Assembly: GCF_003581645.1 (NCBI RefSeq)
Contig: NZ_QXFK01000016.1
Coordinates: forward strand, 248,001 to 312,000
Direction: 5' to 3'
DNA: 64,000 bases
Origin: Pelagerythrobacter aerophilus
GTDB taxonomy: Bacteria; Pseudomonadota; Alphaproteobacteria; Sphingomonadales; Sphingomonadaceae
Shown: positions 28,983 through 64,000 of the stretch, one piece after another
How the letters are laid out: each line of letters starts with the position of its first letter
Numbering within the stretch: the first letter of the stretch is position 1
Notes under the pieces: model-generated
Told to the model about the DNA's origin: nothing
Databases searched by the model: none
The model's input: the letters and a program-made list of their open reading frames with translations, nothing else
Translations under genes and position numbers: made by a program

Positions 28983-30203
28983 TCAGGCCCAGTTGGCCAT
29001 CTCCGCTTCGAGGTTGTTCACGATCGCCTCGAAGAACTGCTCGGTGGTGAGCCAGCTCTGGTCGGGGCCGATCAGCAGCGCGAGGTCCTTGGTCATCTGG
29101 CCGCGCTCGACGGTCTGGATGCAGACGCGCTCGAGGGTTTCGGCGAACTTCACCACGTCGGGCGTGCCGTCGAACTTGCCGCGGTACATCAAGCCCCGGG
29201 TCCAGGCGAAGATGCTGGCGATCGGGTTGGTGCTGGTCGCCTTGCCCTGCTCGTGCTGGCGATAGTGGCGGGTGACGGTGCCGTGCGCCGCTTCGGCCTC
29301 GACGGTCTTGCCATCGGGCGACATCAGGACGCTGGTCATCAGGCCGAGCGAACCGAAGCCCTGGGCCACGGTGTCGGACTGTACGTCGCCGTCGTAGTTC
29401 TTGCAGGCCCAGACGAACTTGCCGTTCCACTTGAGCGCGGAGGCGACCATGTCGTCGATCAGGCGGTGCTCGTAGGTGATGCCGGCCTTGTCGAACTTGT
29501 CCTTGAACTCCGCGTCGAACACTTCCTGGAACAGGTCCTTGAAGCGGCCATCGTAGGCCTTGAGGATCGTGTTCTTGGTCGAGAGATAGACCGGCCAGCC
29601 GCGGTCGAGACCGTAGTTGAAGCTGGCGCGCGCGAAGTCGCGGATCGAATCGTCGAGATTGTACATCGCCATCGCGACGCCGCTCGACTGGAATTCGAAC
29701 ACGTCGAGGTCGATCTTCTCGCCGTTCTCGCCTTCGAATACCAGGCGCAGCTTGCCCGCGCCGGGGATGAGCGTGTCGGTCGCACGATACTGGTCGCCGA
29801 ACGCGTGACGGCCGACGACGATCGGATCGGTCCAGCCCGGCACCAGCCGCGGCACGTTGTCGATCACGATCGGCTCGCGGAAGACGACGCCGCCCAGGAT
29901 GTTGCGGATCGTGCCGTTAGGGCTGCGCCACATCTTCTTGAGGCTGAATTCCTCGACCCGCGCCTCGTCCGGCGTGATGGTCGCGCACTTCACGCCGACG
30001 CCGTGTTCCTTGATCGCATTGGCCGCATCGACGGTGATCTGGTCGTCCGTCTCGTCGCGCTTCTGGATCGACAGGTCGTAGTACTTCAGGTCGACATCCA
30101 GGTAAGGGAGGATTAGCCGCTCGCGGATCCATTCCCAGATGATGCGCGTCATCTCGTCGCCGTCGAGTTCGACGATGGGGTTCTTGACCTGAATCTTCTG
30201 CAT
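28983..30203 (-). CDS. icd: NADP-dependent isocitrate dehydrogenase
   Basis: A 406-residue enzyme of the eukaryote-like, homodimeric NADP family common in alphaproteobacteria. It oxidises isocitrate to 2-oxoglutarate in the TCA cycle. The start is [20 protein letters not shown]; substrate-binding SPNGTIRN and [13 protein letters not shown] are present. The open frame extends 20 residues upstream without support. Confidence 0.97.
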
Positions 30204-30317
30204 GTGTGCCCTATCTGTCTGGATGGTTTGCGCGGGCTTTAGCAGAGGCGGGGGAGGGCGCAAGGGAAGCTACCGGACGCGGCGGAGGCGAACGCGCCGA
30301 GATCATCGCAGATGCAG

Positions 30318-32123: not shown

Positions 32124-32906
32124 TCAGTTCGTTGCGGCGGGTGCCAACTCGGGGCCTTTGCCCTGCTGTTGCTGGCGGGCGAAGATCGCGCGCATCAGGT
32201 CCAGCGAGAACATGTGCGCGTAAATCAGCGCGAGCAATCCGTTCTGGCACCACGTGCGCAGCACGTCGCCGCGCACTTCGCGCAGCTTTTCCTGATTGAT
32301 CATCTGGAAACCACGATAGACGTACGGACGATCGGGATTGTCCTGCAGGGAGATCGCGATCTCGCCATCCATCAGCAGGTCGTGCTTCTTCAGTTCCTCG
32401 ATGAAAGCCTTGGTCCGCTGACCGGCTTCCTCGAAGTGCTGGCAGAACTCGAGCGCGCGCTTGGTCGCGTCGGCCGGCTGACCCTCACCGTCGAACAGGG
32501 CTTCGCCTTCGGAGAATTCGCCGAGCGAGTCCGTGGTCGGGTCGAAGCAGAGCGACAGCTCTTCCGAATCCGGCTGCAGCTTGGCGAGCATGAACGGATA
32601 GCGGCGAATGTAAGCCGGGAGATAGACCGGCTCGTTCACCTTGCCCTCTTCATCGACGAACGTGTTCACACCCTCGTTCAGGCCCATGAGCGCGAGCGGC
32701 AGCGGGTTTTCGCCCGAGGAGAAGACGATCGGATAATCGCGCTGCGCCTGGACGAATTCGTCCACCGTCAGCGGGATCGCATGTTGGGTGCTCAGCCACT
32801 TCGCGGAATCGATGCCCTTGCTGTGCCACTTCGCATGATCGCGGCTGTTGAGGGGCATGAGGTCGTTGTAGAACAGGGGCAGGTTGGGCTGCGGCGGGCT
32901 GGCCAT
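32124..32906 (-). CDS. SapC family protein (orphan copy)
   Basis: A 260-residue SapC-like protein with the family blocks HAIPLTVDEFVQAQRDYPIVF near 42 and LPAYIRRYPFML near 96, and an ending rich in glutamine. SapC was named from a Campylobacter S-layer-linked gene; its molecular function is not established. Unlike the copy at 60203 it is not beside a TonB receptor or halogenase gene. Followed by the candidate small RNA and a strong terminator. Confidence 0.88.
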   Translation of the reverse strand: MASPPQPNLPLFYNDLMPLNSRDHAKWHSKGIDSAKWLSTQHAIPLTVDEFVQAQRDYPIVFSSGENPLPLALMGLNEGVNTFVDEEGKVNEPVYLPAYIRRYPFMLAKLQPDSEELSLCFDPTTDSLGEFSEGEALFDGEGQPADATKRALEFCQHFEEAGQRTKAFIEELKKHDLLMDGEIAISLQDNPDRPYVYRGFQMINQEKLREVRGDVLRTWCQNGLLALIYAHMFSLDLMRAIFARQQQQGKGPELAPAATN

Positions 32907-32974: not shown

Positions 32975-34423
32975 TTAGTTGCTGCATGCCTCCGGCGCAA
33001 GCGGCACGAGCTTGCCGGGATTGAGCAGGCCCTGCGGGTCGAGCGCCTGCTTGATACTGCGCATCATGGCCAGTGCGACCGGGTCACCCAGCCGACCGAG
33101 CTCGTCCCGCTTCATCTGGCCGATACCGTGCTCGGCGCTGATCGAACCGCCCCAGCGGGTAACGAGGTCGTGCACGAAGGCGCTGATCGCCTTGCCTTCC
33201 CCATCCTCCCATTCGCCGCGAACCACGTTCGGGGGCGCCAGAACGTGAAAGTGGACATTCCCGTCGCCCAGGTGTCCGAAAGCGACTGCCGAGGTTCCGG
33301 GAAAGCGCGCCTCCACTTCGGGCACGGCTTGTTGGACGAAATCGGCCATCCGCGCCACCGGAACGGAGATGTCGTGCTGCATCGCCGGGCCGATCGCCCG
33401 CTCGGCCGGCGAGATCGAGTCGCGCAACAGCCAGAACTGCTCCGCCTGCGTCTCGCTCGCAGCGATCGTCGCATCTTCGATCGTCCCCGCCTCGAACGCT
33501 TCGGAGAGTATCGATTCCGCCAGTTCGGAAAGGCCGTCGGTGGCACCTTCTTCTGCGACAAGCTCGATCAACGCATGCCACGCGTGTTCGCTGGCCAGCG
33601 GTCTGCGGGCGTCGGGCAGATGATCGAGCACAGCGGTCAGACAGTGCGCGGGGATGACCTCGAAGCCTTCGAGGTGATTCCCGGCGCGCGCTTCGCAATG
33701 GAGCAGCAGACGGCGCGCGTCGCCGATCGACCGGAGCCCGGCCCATAGCACCGCCCGCTCGCCGATCTCTGGCAGCAGCCGCAGCGTCGCAGCGGTCACG
33801 ATGCCAAGTGTCCCTTCGGACCCGATCAGCAACTGCTTGAGGTCGAACCCGCGGTTGTCCTTCTTGAGCGGAGTAAGCGCGTCGAACACGCTGCCGTCGG
33901 CCAACACCGCCTCCAGGCCCAGGACCTGCGTGCGCATCGTCCCGTGGCGGAGGACCTGGGTGCCGCCGGCATTGGTGGCGATCAGCCCGCCGATCGTGGC
34001 CGAGCCTTTCCCGCCAAGAGTGAGAGGGAAGCGCATCTGCTTGCCGGCAGCGGCGTCGTGCAGGTTCTGCAGAATCACTCCGGCCTCGCACACCGTCTGC
34101 CGCGAATCGGCATTCACTTCGCGGATCGCATTCATGCGGCGGAGCGAGAGCAGCAGGGCGTCGCCATCATCGTCGGGCGTCGCGCCACCTGACATACCGC
34201 TGTTGCCGCCCTGCGGTACGATCGGCACGCGATGACGTGCGCAGAGGCGGACAATGGCCGAGACTTCCTCCGTGCTCGCAGGTGAGGCCATGGCGAGCGC
34301 ATTCCCCGCATAGCGGCCGCGCCAGTCGGTCAGCCACGGCGCCATCAGCTCCGGGTCCCGGGTGAAACCGCGCTCGCCGAGCAGTTCGGCCGCGCTTGCG
34401 AGAAAGGCGTCAGGATCGCGCAT
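32975..34423 (-). CDS. FAD-binding oxidase, D-2-hydroxyacid dehydrogenase type
   Basis: A 482-residue flavoprotein of the VAO/FAD-linked oxidase family. The FAD-binding PIVPQGGNSGMSGG is near residue 70; GSEGTLGIVTAATLRLLPE and the C-terminal SAEHGIGQMKRDELG blocks match D-lactate or D-2-hydroxyglutarate dehydrogenases. It probably oxidises a D-2-hydroxyacid and passes electrons to a flavoprotein or quinone acceptor. The exact substrate is not decided by sequence. Confidence 0.9.
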   Translation of the reverse strand: MRDPDAFLASAAELLGERGFTRDPELMAPWLTDWRGRYAGNALAMASPASTEEVSAIVRLCARHRVPIVPQGGNSGMSGGATPDDDGDALLLSLRRMNAIREVNADSRQTVCEAGVILQNLHDAAAGKQMRFPLTLGGKGSATIGGLIATNAGGTQVLRHGTMRTQVLGLEAVLADGSVFDALTPLKKDNRGFDLKQLLIGSEGTLGIVTAATLRLLPEIGERAVLWAGLRSIGDARRLLLHCEARAGNHLEGFEVIPAHCLTAVLDHLPDARRPLASEHAWHALIELVAEEGATDGLSELAESILSEAFEAGTIEDATIAASETQAEQFWLLRDSISPAERAIGPAMQHDISVPVARMADFVQQAVPEVEARFPGTSAVAFGHLGDGNVHFHVLAPPNVVRGEWEDGEGKAISAFVHDLVTRWGGSISAEHGIGQMKRDELGRLGDPVALAMMRSIKQALDPQGLLNPGKLVPLAPEACSN

Positions 34424-55360: not shown

Positions 55361-55473
55361 CGGTCGCGGGCGCAGGCCACGTTGCGGTTGGCGAGAAGCG
55401 CTCTTTCTGACGAGTTCCACCGTCGCCTGGGGGCATATTTCGCTGTCATCTTTGGCACGGCCATGTTGACCAA

Positions 55474-55503
55474 GTGAACGTTATCAATTAGGTGAACGTT
55501 CAC
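55474..55503 (+). promoter_or_regulatory. Palindromic operator candidate before the TonB receptor gene
   Basis: GTGAACGTTCAC at 55492-55503 is a perfect 12-bp palindrome with a central CG, as in LacI-family operators. A half copy GTGAACGTT begins 18 bases upstream at 55474. The palindrome is 50 bases before the receptor start. The LacI-type gene at 63478 is the natural candidate regulator. The palindrome is seen; the pairing is inferred. Confidence 0.65.
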
Positions 55504-55552
55504 ATAAGAATTTTGCATGCCGCGAAGCGCATGAAATCGGGAGGAGAATCAG

Positions 55553-58552
55553 ATGAAATTGAAGGGCAACCCGTTTCTCGTCAGGGCGCTGGCGGGAACG
55601 TCGTTTGTGGCACTGAGCGCATTGGCGCCGGTCGCGCAGGCGCAGGATTCGTCCGCCGACGACTCCGCTCAAGAGACTGCAAACGATACTCCCGAGGACG
55701 AAAACGTCATCGTCGTATCGGGTATTCGCGCAAGTCTTCAGAACGCGATGAACATCAAGCGCGAAGCTGTCGGCGTGGTGGATGCCATCAGCGCGGAAGA
55801 TATCGGCAAATTCCCCGATACGAACCTTGCCGAATCGCTCCAGCGGATCACCGGCGTATCGATCGACCGCCAGAGCGGCGAAGGGTCGAAAGTGACGGTC
55901 CGCGGTTTCGGGCCGGATTTCAACCTCGTGCTTCTCAACGGCCGCCAGATGCCTGCTTCGAGTTTGGGCGACTGCTGTTCGGCTCCCGCTTCGCGCTCCT
56001 TCGATTTCGCCAACCTTGCCTCGGAGGGCATTGCCGGCGTCGAAGTCTACAAGTCGGGCCGCGCTTCGCTGCCGACCGGCGGTATTGGCTCGGTCATCAA
56101 CATCAAGACGCCGCGCCCGCTCGATCGGCCGGGTTTTCAGGGCAGCATCGGAATCAAGGGTGTAATCGATCACACGTTCGAAGACACCGAGATCACGCCC
56201 GAGATTTCGGGCATCATCAGCAAGACCTTTGCCAACGATACCATCGGCATTCTGGTGAGTGGCTCTTACCAGCGACGCAAGGCCAGCCTCGCGCAGTTCA
56301 CGGTTGGTGAGTGGCGCGAAGGGTATCTTGCAACAGAGGGCAACTGGGGCTCGCTGGCGATGCCGGGCGACCCCCGGTACGCCAACATCGAGAACCGTCC
56401 GGAAGGCGACGATATCTACCAGGTTCCGCAGAACGCGGCCTACGACTTCACCGATATCGATCGTGAACGGATCAACGGCCAGGCCGTGTTGCAATTCCAG
56501 CCGTCGGACGAGTTCGGCGCGACGTTTGACTACACCTTCTCGCAAAACACGCTCGATGCCCGCACGAATAGCATCGGTGTGTGGTTCAATCACGATCAGA
56601 CAAGCAGCAGTTGGACCGATGGGCCAGTCGCCGGTCCAAACTTCTACGCCGAGACTTTCGGGGCAGGAAAGGACCTTCCCATCACCGGCGCGGTCGCCGC
56701 CAATCGCAGCATCAATCACTCGATCGGCGCCAACTTCGAATGGAACCATCCGAGCGGTATGCGCTGGGTGCTGGATGCGCACTATTCGACCGCAGAATCC
56801 AAGCCGACATCTCCATACGGCAGCAACATTGCCGTGGGGACTTCGATCTTCGGCGTCGAGAGTCAGCGTGTCGATTTCACCACCGAGATGCCCGTCCTAT
56901 CGGTTGATATGTATCCGGGCTCCGAAATCGATCCGTCGAATATCCGTCCATCGGGCAATGCATTCCGCAATGCCTATATGAAGGACCGGATCATGGAGGT
57001 GTCGCTAAGGGGCGCCTACGATTTCGACGCCGGGTTCATCGAAAGTCTCGACTTCGGTGCGACCTATACCGATAACAAGGTTCGCACCGCCTATGGTTTC
57101 CTCCAGAGCGACAGCTGGGGCGGCACGTTGAGCGCGGAAGAGACGCCGGACGATTTCTTCACGCCGAGGGACCTTCGCACCGATCTCGACGGGATGAATG
57201 GGTCACAAGACCCGAGCATCATCCCGACCTATTTTCGAATCGCCACGGAAGACTTGATCCAGTTCCTTGAATCGGAGATTGGAATCTGTTCTGCGCCATG
57301 GTCCGGCACGCCCACGGGCGAAGGCTGCCTGGCCGAATATACCGTCGACCGCCGGCTCCGTGAAAAGACCATCGCGCCGTTCGTGCAGTCGCTTCACGCG
57401 TTCGACATCCTTGCGGACGAGGCTCACCTGCGCCTTGGCTTGCGGTACGAAACGACCGATATTTCCGCCCCAGCGCGAGTTCCGGTCCCAATCGGGACCG
57501 TACTGATCTCCGACAACGAAATCGCAATCCAGAATGCTGAGGATACGGTAGCCTCGTCGCTGAAAGGCAGCTACGACAACTGGCTCCCGGCAATTGACTT
57601 CGACATTACGCCGATCGAGAACGTCGTTCTGCGCGCGTCATATAGTCACACGATCACCCGCGCGGGCTATGACAAGTTAGGCGGCGGTTTGACCGTTAAC
57701 TCTCCTGCTCGCCCCAACGGCGGCAGTACCGGCAGCAGCGGCGATCCCGGCCTCACCCCGTACAAGTCGAAGAACTTCGATGTGTCGGCCGAGTGGTATT
57801 ACGGTCCGGCAAGCTATATTTCAGTTGGGTACTTCCGTAAGAACGTCAGTAACTTCATCACCGATCAGACGACGCAGGAGCCGGTATTCGACTTGCCTAA
57901 TCCGGCTCAAGGTGCTGCTGTGCAGGCAGCGCGGGCTGCGCTAGGCGAAGACGCGAGCTTCGCCGACATTCTCAGTTACGTGGCGACCAACAATCCAGAC
58001 CTCGTCACCCGGGACAACGCCGGCGAGCCCCGGGGCATTATTGGGCAGCCCGGAGATCCTTCACTGGTTTTCACGATCACTCGGCCAATCAACACCGATC
58101 GGTCGGCGACGCTAGATGGTTTCGAGTTCGCTATCCAGCACGACTTCTGGAACACCGGTTTCGGGGCTATCCTTAACTACACGATCGTAAATAGTGACAC
58201 TCATTACGATAATACGTTACGCTACACGGAAGAGCAGTTCGCTGTGACCGGTGTTTCCGACAGCGCCAATGCCGTTCTATTCTACGACCGGGGCGGTCTG
58301 CAGGCGCGTGTTGCCTATAACTGGCGGGACGAGTTTCTGACCGGTTACGGGCTCGACCCGTTCTACATTGAAGCCTACGGCCAGGTCGATGCGAGTGCGA
58401 GCTACGAATTCGCAAACGGGCTCACCATCTTCGGCGAGGCCATCAACCTCCTGAGCGAAGGCCGTCGGGGCCATCGCCGGGCCGATCAGGCGGTGTATTT
58501 CGCGGCCCCGGGCTACGCCCGATACGCGGCCGGCGTGCGCTTTACCTGGTGA
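55553..58552 (+). CDS. TonB-dependent receptor
   Basis: A 999-residue outer-membrane receptor that imports a large substrate using TonB energy. A signal peptide (cleavage near AQAQ, about 30) precedes the TonB box NVIVVSGIR at 51-59. The plug follows (AEDIGKFPDTNLAESLQRITGVSI, then YKSGRASLPTGGIGSVINIKT), then a 22-strand-type barrel ending in RYAAGVRFTW. GGAGGAG lies 6 bases upstream of the ATG. Its length and plug sequence resemble receptors of carbohydrate loci in Sphingomonadales and Caulobacterales. Confidence 0.95.
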   Translation: MKLKGNPFLVRALAGTSFVALSALAPVAQAQDSSADDSAQETANDTPEDENVIVVSGIRASLQNAMNIKREAVGVVDAISAEDIGKFPDTNLAESLQRITGVSIDRQSGEGSKVTVRGFGPDFNLVLLNGRQMPASSLGDCCSAPASRSFDFANLASEGIAGVEVYKSGRASLPTGGIGSVINIKTPRPLDRPGFQGSIGIKGVIDHTFEDTEITPEISGIISKTFANDTIGILVSGSYQRRKASLAQFTVGEWREGYLATEGNWGSLAMPGDPRYANIENRPEGDDIYQVPQNAAYDFTDIDRERINGQAVLQFQPSDEFGATFDYTFSQNTLDARTNSIGVWFNHDQTSSSWTDGPVAGPNFYAETFGAGKDLPITGAVAANRSINHSIGANFEWNHPSGMRWVLDAHYSTAESKPTSPYGSNIAVGTSIFGVESQRVDFTTEMPVLSVDMYPGSEIDPSNIRPSGNAFRNAYMKDRIMEVSLRGAYDFDAGFIESLDFGATYTDNKVRTAYGFLQSDSWGGTLSAEETPDDFFTPRDLRTDLDGMNGSQDPSIIPTYFRIATEDLIQFLESEIGICSAPWSGTPTGEGCLAEYTVDRRLREKTIAPFVQSLHAFDILADEAHLRLGLRYETTDISAPARVPVPIGTVLISDNEIAIQNAEDTVASSLKGSYDNWLPAIDFDITPIENVVLRASYSHTITRAGYDKLGGGLTVNSPARPNGGSTGSSGDPGLTPYKSKNFDVSAEWYYGPASYISVGYFRKNVSNFITDQTTQEPVFDLPNPAQGAAVQAARAALGEDASFADILSYVATNNPDLVTRDNAGEPRGIIGQPGDPSLVFTITRPINTDRSATLDGFEFAIQHDFWNTGFGAILNYTIVNSDTHYDNTLRYTEEQFAVTGVSDSANAVLFYDRGGLQARVAYNWRDEFLTGYGLDPFYIEAYGQVDASASYEFANGLTIFGEAINLLSEGRRGHRRADQAVYFAAPGYARYAAGVRFTW

Positions 58553-58588
58553 GGGGTGGGGGCGTTCCCGCCCCCTCCTACTTGCAAG

Positions 58589-58628
58589 AGAGTCGCACTG
58601 CCCCCGACGCAGTGCGACTCTTTGTCTC
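58589..58628 (+). terminator. Hairpin between receptor and halogenase genes
   Basis: AGAGTCGCACTGC pairs with GCAGTGCGACTCT around a 7-base loop, followed by TTGTCT. The weak T tract suggests partial termination, giving more receptor than downstream enzyme. A second short GC hairpin lies just before it. Confidence 0.7.
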
Positions 58629-58634
58629 CGGTGA

Positions 58635-60914
<2,280 letters not shown>

Positions 60915-60922
<8 letters not shown>

Positions 60923-61946
60923 GGCCGACCCTCCGATTTTCACGGGCATGGAACAAGTCCCGGAGCGCAAGGCGAGCGATAGTGCCGCGCTGTCCTCGAT
61001 ACTCGATGAGGCTGATTCACCCTTTGTGGTGCGCGGACTGGTGTCGGAATGGCCATTGGTCAAGGCGGGGCTCCAATCCGCACGCACCGCCCGCCGCTAT
61101 CTGCTGGACCGTGCCCGGTCGGCCCCCTTCACGGTGACCATCGGCGAACCGGGTCGTGGCGGGCGACTGTTCTACGACGACGACTTCGGAATGAACTTCC
61201 GCACCGCGCGCGGGAAGCTCGCAGACATCTTTCGCGGTTTCGATGACAACGAAGCCCGCACGGAAGCGCCCGCGATCTACCTTTCCTCGGTCGATATGAA
61301 GCTGTTCTTCGACGGGTTGGTCGAAGAAAATGTCTCCCCGGTGGTCGACCGGCGACCGCTCGAAAGCATCTGGATCGGTACCGACACCTGCGTGGCGGCT
61401 CACAACGACTTTCCTCGCAATCTGGCTTGCTGTGCCGTTGGCCGACGACGCTTCACGATCTTCCCGCCCGAGCAGTTCGCCAATCTCTACATCGGCCCGC
61501 TCGAGAACACGCCCGCCGGCCGTGCGGTGAGCATGGTCGATTTCCACGCGCCCGACTTCGATGCCTTCCCGCGTTTCGCCGAGGCGTTGAAGCATGCGCA
61601 AGTGGTCGAGCTGGAGCCGGGCGATGCGGTCTACATTCCTTCGATGTGGTGGCACCATGTCGAGGGACTCGACCCTTTCAATGTGCTGGTAAACTACTGG
61701 TGGCGCGACACGCCCGGTTTTCTCGGCCAGCCGCATGACGCGCTCAATCACGCCATCCTCGCGCTGCGCGACCTGCCGCGATCCGAACGCGCCTTCTGGC
61801 GTGAGCTGTTCGACCATTACGTCTTCGAGAATCCACCGGAGGTGGCCGAGCATATCCCCCAAAAGGCCCGGGGGATCCTTGCTCCGCTGACCGCCGAGAC
61901 CGCAGGCAGGATAAAAGCCTATCTGCTGAGGGCACTGAGCAAATGA
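60915..61946 (+). CDS. Cupin_8 / JmjC-like Fe(II) oxygenase candidate
   Basis: A 343-residue protein of the cupin-like JmjC group. The iron-binding triad is visible: His163 and Asp165 in AAHNDFPRN, and a later histidine in MWWHHVEG (247 or 248). FVVRGLVSEWPLV near 37 is typical of the family. Known relatives hydroxylate proteins or small molecules using 2-oxoglutarate. It begins with GTG at 60915 inside the sapC end and its stop overlaps the next start (ATGA). Confidence 0.85.
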
Positions 61947-63445
61947 GAAGCGACTTTACACCCATGCGGATCGTGGTCGCCGGAGGAGGCACCGCAGGCT
62001 GGATGGCCGCCGCGGCGTTGGCGTACACCATGGGCGAGACAATCGACCTGACCCTGGTCGAAAGCGACGCCATTGGCACTGTGGGCGTGGGAGAGGCGAC
62101 GATCCCACCCTTGGTTCTGTTCAACCGCCTGATCGGTATAAGCGAAGCCGATTTCATGCGCGAGACGCAGGCGACCTTCAAGCTGGGCATCGAATTCGAG
62201 AACTGGAGGTGCGAGGGGGAAAAATACTTCCATGCCTTCGGGACCACCGGGCGCGATCACTGGTCCGCGGGATTCCAGCACTTCTGGGCCGAGGGGAACG
62301 AGCGCGGCCATTCGGACAGCTACAGCGACTACTGCCTCGAGCTGGTGGCAGCCTATGCGCGCAAATTCGCACATCTGCCCAAGAACGGGCTGAACTACGC
62401 CTATCACCTGAACGCAACGGCCTATGCTGCCTTTCTCCGCCGCATTGCCGAGAAAGCCGGCGCCAAACGCGTCGAGGGCAAGATCGCACAGGTCGAGCTC
62501 GACGGGGACAGCGGCGACATCACCGCCCTGAGGCTGGAAGATGGCCAGAGGCTCGAAGGTGACCTGTTCCTCGACTGTACGGGCTTTCGTGCGCTGCTCA
62601 TCGAAGGGGCACTGCACGTCGGTTATGACGATTGGTCCCATTACCTGCCATGCGATCGCGCGATCGCGGTGCAAACCGAGCTTTCCGGACCGCCCGTGCC
62701 CTATACCCGTGCCATTGCGCACGATGCGGGCTGGCAATGGCGTATTCCCCTGCAGCACCGCGGCGGGAATGGCATCGTCTACTGCAGCCGCTACCTTTCG
62801 CAGGACGCAGCGCGCGAACGGCTCATGTCAACGCTCGAAGGCAAGCCCATCAGCGAGCCCCGGGCAATACCGTTTACCGCTGGCGCACGGCGCAAGCAGT
62901 GGCATCGCAATTGTGTTGCCATCGGCCTTGCGGGCGGATTCCTCGAACCGCTTGAATCTACCAGTATCCACTTGATCCAGCGCGCTGTCGTGCGGCTGAT
63001 GCGGATGATGCCGGCGGGCCAGGTAAGCGAACGGGACATCGCCGAATTCAACGATCAGCAGCTTACCGACATGATCCAGGTGAGGGATTTCCTGATCCTA
63101 CACTACAACGCCACCGACCGGCGCGACAGCCCGTTCTGGCGGCAATGCGCCACGATGGATATCCCGGATACACTGCGCCAGAAGATCGAGCTGTTCCGCG
63201 AAACGGGTCGTGTTTTCCGTAAGAACGAGGAGATATTCGCCGAGAACAGTTGGGTGCAGGTCATGCTCGGCCAGGGCATCAAGCCGCGAAACCACCACCC
63301 AATAGCGAAGAAAATGAGCGACGCGGAACTGTCGCGCTTTCTTTCATCCTTGCGAGAAAACATCACCAAAACAGTGGCGGCCTTGCCAAGCCACGAAGAC
63401 TATGTGGCGCAATTCTGCGGGTCAAAACAGGCGACGGTTGCCTGA
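61943..63445 (+). CDS. Flavin-dependent tryptophan halogenase-like protein 2
   Basis: A 500-residue paralogue with canonical motifs: GGGTAGW at 14-20, GVGEATIP, Lys80 in ATFK (RebH Lys79 position), WQWRIP at 264-269, and EPLEST at 335-340. It is the better candidate for true halogenation. A second in-frame ATG at residue 8 (MRIVVAGG) could be the start, but ATG 61943 overlaps the cupin stop. Substrate unknown; no flavin reductase gene is seen nearby. Confidence 0.9.
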   Translation: MRSDFTPMRIVVAGGGTAGWMAAAALAYTMGETIDLTLVESDAIGTVGVGEATIPPLVLFNRLIGISEADFMRETQATFKLGIEFENWRCEGEKYFHAFGTTGRDHWSAGFQHFWAEGNERGHSDSYSDYCLELVAAYARKFAHLPKNGLNYAYHLNATAYAAFLRRIAEKAGAKRVEGKIAQVELDGDSGDITALRLEDGQRLEGDLFLDCTGFRALLIEGALHVGYDDWSHYLPCDRAIAVQTELSGPPVPYTRAIAHDAGWQWRIPLQHRGGNGIVYCSRYLSQDAARERLMSTLEGKPISEPRAIPFTAGARRKQWHRNCVAIGLAGGFLEPLESTSIHLIQRAVVRLMRMMPAGQVSERDIAEFNDQQLTDMIQVRDFLILHYNATDRRDSPFWRQCATMDIPDTLRQKIELFRETGRVFRKNEEIFAENSWVQVMLGQGIKPRNHHPIAKKMSDAELSRFLSSLRENITKTVAALPSHEDYVAQFCGSKQATVA

Positions 63446-63477
63446 CCGTATGTGGCAGGCGAATGACGAGGACGATA

Positions 63478-64000
63478 ATGGCAGTGGGTAATGGGGGTTT
63501 AGCACCAACGGGCAGGCGCCGCCAATCGGTCACCATCAAGCACGTGGCGGCGGACGCGGGTGTATCGCTGCAGACCGTCAGCCGCGTCATCAATAACGGC
63601 CCCAATGTCCGCCCGGCAATGAAGGAACGAGTCCAGGCGAGCATCGACAAGCTCGGTTACGTACCTTCGATAGCCGCGCAGCGGATGAGTGGTTCACGTT
63701 CCTATCTCATCCTCGCCATCAACGACCGCGACCGCACCATAGCCGACTGGCGCGCGCGCGAGGGACGTGACTGGATCGACCAGATGCTCCTCGGCGGCAT
63801 GCTGACCGCTGCCGAGCGCGGCTATCGTATGATCTTCGAATTGGTCGATACCCACAGCGACCATGTCGAACGAGAGTTGGGTGCGGCGATTGCAGCTTTG
63901 CGGCCCGATGGGATAATCGTGACGCCGCCACATTCGGAAAACCTGCAGATCACCGATCTACTGGCCGAAAGCGGCATTCCCTTCGCCCGGATCGGTTCGA
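63478..64000 (+). CDS. LacI-family transcriptional regulator, N-terminal part
   Basis: At least 174 residues are visible; the gene runs off the window. The DNA-binding helix-turn-helix VTIKHVAADAGVSLQTVSRVINN is at about 18-40, followed by the hinge GYVPSIAAQRM and the start of a sugar-binding-type effector domain. GAGG lies about 6 bases upstream of the ATG. Such regulators usually sense a sugar and control the neighbouring uptake locus; the palindrome before the receptor gene is a candidate target. Confidence 0.9.
   Translation, partial: MAVGNGGLAPTGRRRQSVTIKHVAADAGVSLQTVSRVINNGPNVRPAMKERVQASIDKLGYVPSIAAQRMSGSRSYLILAINDRDRTIADWRAREGRDWIDQMLLGGMLTAAERGYRMIFELVDTHSDHVERELGAAIAALRPDGIIVTPPHSENLQITDLLAESGIPFARIGS

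Follow-up and report, generated by a model that had tools for sequence, protein, structure and literature searches.

Carbohydrate utilisation loci containing a TonB-dependent receptor (CUT loci) were described in Xanthomonas and other Proteobacteria (PMC1790865, available part of the text), and combine a TonB-dependent receptor (TBDR) with a sugar-type regulator, degradative enzymes and an inner-membrane transporter. Two flavin-dependent halogenases (FDHs), Xcc4156 and BrvH, act on free indole and indole derivatives; Xcc4156 has an open active site and does not take free tryptophan, and peptides were considered a possible substrate (PMC7336383, available part of the text). Here we describe a locus of Pelagerythrobacter aerophilus that holds a TBDR gene, an FDH-like gene (FDH1), a SapC family gene, a cupin_8 oxygenase gene, an FDH gene related to those of Xcc4156 and BrvH (FDH2) and a gene for a LacI-family regulator. 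It lies at the end of a 64,000-nucleotide stretch of contig NZ_QXFK01000016.1 (forward-strand positions 248,001 to 312,000), the whole of which we call the window. The locus is probably the outer-membrane uptake arm of a LacI-controlled regulon for utilisation of a beta-1,3(1,4)-glucan (laminarin-like). Our account is built on the DNA and protein sequences, from which the gene set and order, the operator-like sites and their rarity, the glucanase partners, a hairpin, and the halogenase and oxygenase motifs can be read directly.

Like a CUT locus, the locus has a TBDR gene (TIGR01782 type) with a sugar-type regulator (LacI) beside it. The degradative enzyme and the inner-membrane transporter do not adjoin the TBDR. 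Because these genes sit on another contig, the locus is not a full CUT member; its genes predict that it works like a split CUT locus. Unlike CUT loci, it carries an FDH-SapC-cupin cassette, and the main text of PMC1790865 contains neither 'halogenase' nor 'SapC'. We found no halogenase-SapC-TonB receptor association, and no halogenase-cupin-TonB receptor association, in the open literature, which takes in only a minority of subscription papers and no bioRxiv preprints, and the available part of PMC11337851 describes no association of halogenases with TonB receptors.

Organisation of the locus

An initial sequence-only reading of the window had placed a TBDR, two halogenase-like genes, a SapC gene and a cupin_8 gene in one direction beside a LacI-type regulator. 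The open reading frames (ORFs) and family matches bear this out, and the six-gene locus is present as described, with all genes on the + strand. The TBDR gene (55553-58552; 597 bits against a TIGR01782 cut-off of 310) is followed by FDH1 (58659-60206; PF04820, 395 bits), SapC (60203-60922; PF07277, 223.5 bits against a cut-off of 28.9), the cupin_8 or JmjC-type oxygenase, with a GTG start (60915-61946; PF13621, 229.5 bits), and FDH2 (61943-63445; PF04820, 628 bits). The 5' part of the LacI gene (approximately 63478-64000; PF00356, 58 bits) starts 32 bases 3' of FDH2, and the gene continues beyond the window end to a stop near G000:C3:312566. The tightness claimed for the locus holds for the four enzyme genes, which overlap by 4, 8 and 4 bases in the order FDH1-SapC-cupin-FDH2. 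It does not extend to the TBDR gene, which stands outside this block, separated from FDH1 by a 106-bp gap with a strong hairpin inside (58587-58623, + strand; 15-bp stem). By eye, the TBDR has an N-terminal signal-like segment and FDH1, SapC, the cupin and FDH2 have none. The AlphaFold2 (AF2) model of the TBDR reached a predicted local distance difference test score (pLDDT) of 80.5.

A rare operator-like site shared with glucanase genes

Two copies of a LacI-type operator precede the receptor gene, AGTGAACGTTATCA at 55473-55486 and GGTGAACGTTCACA at 55491-55504, the second with a perfect GTGAACGTTCAC core. Both were found with the pattern TGDKAACGTTMHCA, one mismatch allowed, which was fitted by eye from promoters and then counted. 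(A first operator weight matrix was dropped, only 4 sites being behind it, and the pattern count was used instead.) Throughout the 3.65-Mb genome the pattern has only 3 sites: these two, and one in the gap between a GH3-GH16 gene and a divergent major facilitator superfamily (MFS) transporter gene on another contig. A reversed control pattern gave 1 site. The chance of a single site falling in the GH3-GH16/MFS gap is about 2e-4, with the GH3 start chosen by eye. Since the receptor and the GH3-GH16/MFS gap share this rare operator, the locus probably serves as the uptake arm of a regulon for beta-1,3(1,4)-glucan.

In relatives, gathered as described below, the pattern was present upstream of 54 of 69 receptors and of 45 of 59 GH3-bearing loci. 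Of 125 sites, 119 fell within 51.8 kb of sequence preceding receptor or GH3 genes, and 6 in the other 1.40 Mb; this enrichment is partly circular, since the pattern was derived from the same promoters. From this arrangement, the LacI protein of the locus is predicted to bind the operator-like site and repress through it. Eight Pseudoalteromonas loci carry a different palindrome, TGTAAGCGCTTACA, 55-60 bases before the receptor. Two relatives (L046 at 8456 and L110 at ~8453) have an extra operator-like site in the receptor-FDH1 gap, which suggests a second control point for the enzymes.

The partner genes were identified in two ways. GH3 was found in 66 of the 74 relatives' loci by tblastn, and clustering of neighbouring ORFs in the same loci gave GH3 in 59, MFS in 40, GH16 in 29 and a second MFS in 15, with cluster identity taken from one member per cluster scanned against Pfam. 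For MFS we used the clustering count, the tblastn count of 56 loci being inflated by an ORF that apparently runs through LacI. Among eight recurring neighbour clusters scanned, six were glycosidases or MFS transporters; the remaining two were an aldo/keto reductase and a cluster without a match. The best solved match of the GH16 cluster member was a laminarinase. No GH3 lies next door in the window genome or its two nearest relatives (L037 and L038). The window genome holds one GH16 and four GH3 matches, and a single ORF on the other contig (G000:C5 38958-42497) carries both a GH3 and a GH16 domain. Its GH3 part is 67% identical to the GH3 of a Sphingopyxis locus, and the MFS beside it is 68% identical to the MFS of a relative's locus. 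The same GH3 part is nearest to the exo-1,3/1,4-beta-glucanase 3usz.

The sequence-only reading had seen no glycosidase and had proposed that an imported compound is oxidised or halogenated rather than a polymer degraded. That argument falls with the GH3 genes of the relatives, and also with the window genome's own GH3-GH16 fusion and MFS gene, which share the rare operator. The locus is thereby placed in beta-glucan turnover, and we infer the exact glucan from these partners. The link to a polymer makes the locus less strange than it had first seemed; the cassette keeps it interesting.

Two further gene arrangements were seen beside these. In three Hellea loci (L091, L095 and L096) an ORF of the GH16 cluster lies between the receptor and FDH1. 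The window's contig also carries another GH3 / TonB receptor / LacI locus (L117 7862-14807; G000:C3 227861-234806), preceded by the palindrome TGACAACGTTGACA; the 20-kb stretch that holds it yielded no match to FDH or SapC.

Conservation among SapC relatives

We gathered 74 loci by one SapC scan of genome contigs (SapC identity 38-94%), the nearest being that of Pelagerythrobacter rhizovicinus, with a 94% identical SapC. Because the loci were drawn by SapC similarity, the counts describe close relatives only. When matches had to reach 80% of the query length, TBDR was present in 69 loci, FDH1 in 56, SapC (the query) in 74, the cupin in 73, FDH2 in 63 and LacI in 67. All six genes were found in 43 of the 74, which supports the earlier claim of a conserved, co-directed unit adjoining its regulator; 39 of these 43 had the window's order, and in the other four (L091, L092, L095 and L096) LacI was ahead of the receptor. 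Co-occurrence of the six-gene set is far beyond chance. Start codons were picked by script; on this basis, the 4-base FDH1-SapC overlap recurred in 15 of 56 loci, the 8-base SapC-cupin overlap in 44 of 73 and the 4-base cupin-FDH2 overlap in 48 of 63.

FDH1 was the only gene missing from 15 loci, FDH2 was missing from 8 Pseudoalteromonas loci that have FDH1, and neither FDH was present in L052. Some gene losses reflect short contigs (L039, L058, L076 and L108). The independent scatter of homologues that would speak against a unit was not seen among close SapC relatives; more distant SapC and FDH genes are also found separately from one another. In L109 (5073-11734; Sphingomonas sp. H160509) the receptor, FDH1, SapC and cupin matches are fragmented, through decay or sequencing error.

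The hairpin between receptor and enzyme genes

We searched the gap between the receptor and the next gene for hairpins with stems of 10 or more pairs, tolerating one mismatch and G-T pairs. Five receptor loci with gaps of more than 400 bases were omitted and 64 gaps counted. A hairpin was present in 56 of the 64, compared with 16.2 expected from shuffles. Its sequence varies among relatives, and a tail rich in T is often visible by eye. The 111-nt hairpin region of the window folds at a z of -3.07. The overlapping starts had been taken to suggest expression of the genes at a fixed ratio, which is doubtful, since a hairpin of at least 10 pairs separates the receptor from the next gene in those 56 loci. 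It seems instead that transcription may terminate at the hairpin, which would act as an attenuator and make the enzymes substoichiometric to the receptor.

The halogenases, the cupin and SapC

The best solved matches of FDH2 were Xcc4156 (6y1w, 677 bits), 9luq and 6frl (455 bits), the last of which we take to be BrvH. The flavin adenine dinucleotide (FAD), catalytic lysine and WxWxIP motifs have known roles in flavin-dependent halogenases. Among 64 FDH2 sequences, the GGGTAGW FAD motif was found in 60, the catalytic lysine segment FKxG in 63 and WxWxIP in all; from these sequence marks FDH2 is predicted to be a flavin-dependent halogenase of the tryptophan type. The work on Xcc4156 and BrvH in PMC7336383 used model indoles, and its main text does not contain the word 'TonB'. 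Unlike these relatives as studied, FDH2 has a conserved gene context with a receptor. The natural substrates of such halogenases appear unsettled, peptides being a guess in the available part of PMC7336383.

FDH1 is approximately 93% identical to PDB 9ltb_A over its full length (hand count of the alignment), followed by 2pyx and 9lu2. The 9ltb entry is titled a tryptophan halogenase; 9ltb, 9lu2 and 9luq are named in no paper that we found in the open literature, which left no published function of 9ltb to compare with. FDH1 belongs to PF04820 (395 bits) with its catalytic lysine in place; the WxWxIP motif is replaced by WLWDIA in the window and by WxWDI[AG] in 57 of 57 FDH1 sequences, compared with WxWxIP in 64 of 64 FDH2 sequences. 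It is possible, although we think it doubtful, that FDH1 is a flavin monooxygenase rather than a halogenase and that the cassette hydroxylates its target rather than halogenating it. The altered motif is consistent with this, as is the match of both FDHs to the NCBIfam flavin monooxygenase QhpG, which is weak (34 of 240 bits) and far under the cut-off. Against it, 55 of 57 FDH1 sequences retain the lysine segment FKQG, and the nearest structures 9ltb, 2pyx and 9lu2 were all named tryptophan halogenase by their depositors.

The catalytic lysine and FAD motifs would also suit enzymes that make hypohalous acid, or a halogenated compound that diffuses away, for use in competition on the surfaces of algae or plants; their genes would ride with the uptake operon since both functions would be needed once glucan is available. 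In marine bacteria, tryptophan halogenases were speculated to have a bactericidal role (PMC11337851, available part of the text). No biosynthetic genes were present among the genes identified around the block, and SapC and the cupin would be left unexplained. We regard such a role as improbable.

The best solved matches of the cupin were FIH and JMJD5, with C2orf60 and JMJD7 lower down. FIH and JMJD5 act on proteins, C2orf60 is a tRNA enzyme, and the HxD...H residues of JmjC/cupin_8 2-oxoglutarate oxygenases are their iron ligands. In the cupin these residues (H163, D165 and H247) are conserved in at least 73 of 74 sequences, as expected of a cupin_8 2-oxoglutarate oxygenase. The cupin thus shares with the JmjC-type hydroxylases FIH and JMJD5 both the HxD...H residues and a sequence match, the best of which spans only residues 159-268 (E 3.6e-19); its activity is a prediction from this resemblance to protein hydroxylases.

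The family name of SapC (PF07277) is a profile match only and implies no tested function. Its AF2 model is of high quality (pLDDT 93.2, predicted template modelling score 0.89). A PDB sequence search gave one chance-level match (E 1), and no fold match at E<=0.001 was obtained in the two libraries searched, PDB and viral models, neither of which covers cellular predicted structures, so that a new fold is not proven. SapC gains a reproducible genomic context from the locus.

Pairing of halogenases and receptors beyond the locus

In the host family, SapC was found in 58 of 59 genomes and an FDH match below 1e-50 in 36 of 59 (our own count of the table). Among 40 FDH regions picked in the family, 33 had a TBDR by profile. 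Of the other seven, three had TBDR domains near the FDH and a fourth mainly another outer-membrane barrel domain; in L125, L129 and L157 the only long ORF scanned near the FDH was not a TBDR. Outside the family, 54 FDH regions from 23 genomes were examined, and a TBDR lay within 2 kb of the FDH in 42. The chance of such adjacency, estimated manually from 168 TIGR01782 matches in ~96 Mb with at most 25 candidates scored per genome, is roughly 2%, a figure that may be somewhat low. SapC was found near 12 of the 37 receptors adjacent to an FDH and near none of the 39 others from the same genomes; when only receptors with 2.5 kb or more of flanking sequence on each side were counted, the figures were 9 of 31 and 0 of 37.

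FDH neighbours inside the family include GH13, GH97, GH3, GH43, GH9, GH32 and GH39. For 80 further FDH neighbours there, the first 25 of 64 families contained alpha-amylase 9 times, GH97 6 times, GH3 5 times, and GH43, GH9, GH32 and GH39 once each. These neighbours bear on a role of the kind proposed by the sequence-only reading, in which the cassette would halogenate or oxidise a small phenolic or indolic compound that enters with the glucan or is freed from it. Since no signal peptide is seen by eye in any of the four enzymes, a cytosolic small molecule would be a natural substrate, and the closest relatives of FDH2 are active on free indoles (PMC7336383, available part of the text). However, FDH-receptor pairs stand beside enzymes for very different sugars, which a single compound does not explain, and six of the eight neighbour clusters scanned were glycosidases or MFS transporters, the others being the reductase and the one without a match. 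We consider a small-molecule substrate rather unlikely.

Search for a target residue in the receptor

Within the lineage, we compared 69 receptors, that of the window and 68 orthologues. Tryptophans W265 and W522 were present in 60 of 60 receptors from FDH2-bearing loci, and the strand list of the AF2 model places both in long, presumably extracellular loops. In L052, the sole receptor locus without FDHs, the W265 loop is absent and W522 is kept; Pseudoalteromonas receptors have a tryptophan one residue off W265. The motif [NDSTE].WG, chosen after looking, was found in 25 of 32 FDH-adjacent paralogues, compared with 5 of 29 receptors of FDH-free genomes. No FDH1-dependent receptor column (45 vs 15 receptors) fully separated the two groups. 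W748 was considered as an FDH2 target, being tryptophan in 60 of 60 receptors of FDH2-bearing loci and tyrosine in 9 of 9 others. It was rejected: these amount to about two independent contrasts, and W748 is also a barrel-strand position with the opposite trend in the hold-out set (15 of 37 vs 29 of 39).

The hold-out criterion was fixed beforehand for Caulobacteraceae and FDH-free control genomes; as run, the test drew on 23 genomes from elsewhere in the phylum, none of the host family, and took its control receptors from those genomes too. From 94 receptors we dropped 14 for which an FDH lay 1.5-4 kb away and a further 4 at the edge of a contig or region. One shared target tryptophan, suggestive within the family, was dropped as a candidate after the hold-out counts, which are given below. 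The nearest neighbour of 33 of the 37 FDH-adjacent hold-out receptors was another FDH-adjacent receptor, and lineage is therefore a simpler cause of the tryptophan pattern.

A possible role for the enzyme cassette

In the mechanism that we propose, LacI would repress the receptor operon through the double operator at 55473-55504, and a site of the same kind would serve the detached GH3-GH16 glucanase and MFS transporter. Glucan oligosaccharides would release LacI, and the receptor would be made in bulk. The four overlapping enzyme genes would be expressed in smaller amounts because the hairpin intervenes between them and the receptor. The FDH1-SapC-cupin-FDH2 cassette may then be an accessory of the receptor, modifying its chain or another uptake protein before export. 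We favour this modification of the receptor or an uptake protein over a small-molecule pathway, but only tentatively. More speculative still, and in our view unlikely in this general form, is a widespread system of Pseudomonadota in which cytosolic halogenases, a JmjC-type hydroxylase and SapC modify new sugar TonB receptors before their export. If it were true, outer-membrane receptors would be natural substrates of BrvH/Xcc4156-type halogenases. The operon logic, for its part, points these halogenases to sugar-uptake receptors or their cargo. The three alternative roles considered above bear on the cassette only and are compatible with a glucan regulon.

A number of observations weigh against parts of this scheme. 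For the regulon, no operator was found at 15 of the 69 receptor loci, among them all 8 of Pseudoalteromonas. For the attenuator, the stem beats all 40 shuffles in only 38 of 64 gaps, and a scan of the window for consensus (simple) terminators did not flag the hairpin at 58587-58623. For the cassette, the losses of FDH1 in 15 loci and of both FDHs in L052 mean that the receptor can exist without the halogenases; 12 of the 54 FDH regions outside the family have no TBDR within 2 kb by profile; and the tRNA enzyme C2orf60 is also among the solved relatives of the cupin. In the hold-out, which did not uphold a shared tryptophan motif, motif M1 was found in 16 of 37 FDH-adjacent receptors and 11 of 39 others (p=0.23). 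Motif M2 was found in 16 of 37 and 6 of 39 (p=0.011, above the preset 0.01; p=0.05 with equal flanks). Aligned W519 or W522 was found in 15 of 37 and 9 of 39 (p=0.14), and aligned W265 in 5 of 37 and 0 of 39 (p=0.024). Given this outcome of the hold-out, modification of the receptor by the cassette, which we hold as a tentative possibility, rests on the gene order, the protein-acting relatives of the cupin and the open FDH2-type site, and on no target residue.

Neighbouring genes

Just beyond the window end, downstream of the LacI gene, lie genes for a VIT/VWA protein and then a sortase (L003 10394-13239), and a further TonB receptor gene is found ~8 kb downstream of LacI (L003 17735-19915, - strand). 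The window holds a second SapC gene (32124-32906, - strand) with no halogenase beside it, which adjoins a gene for an FAD-linked oxidase (32975-34423); an isocitrate dehydrogenase gene (28983-30263) lies in the same region.

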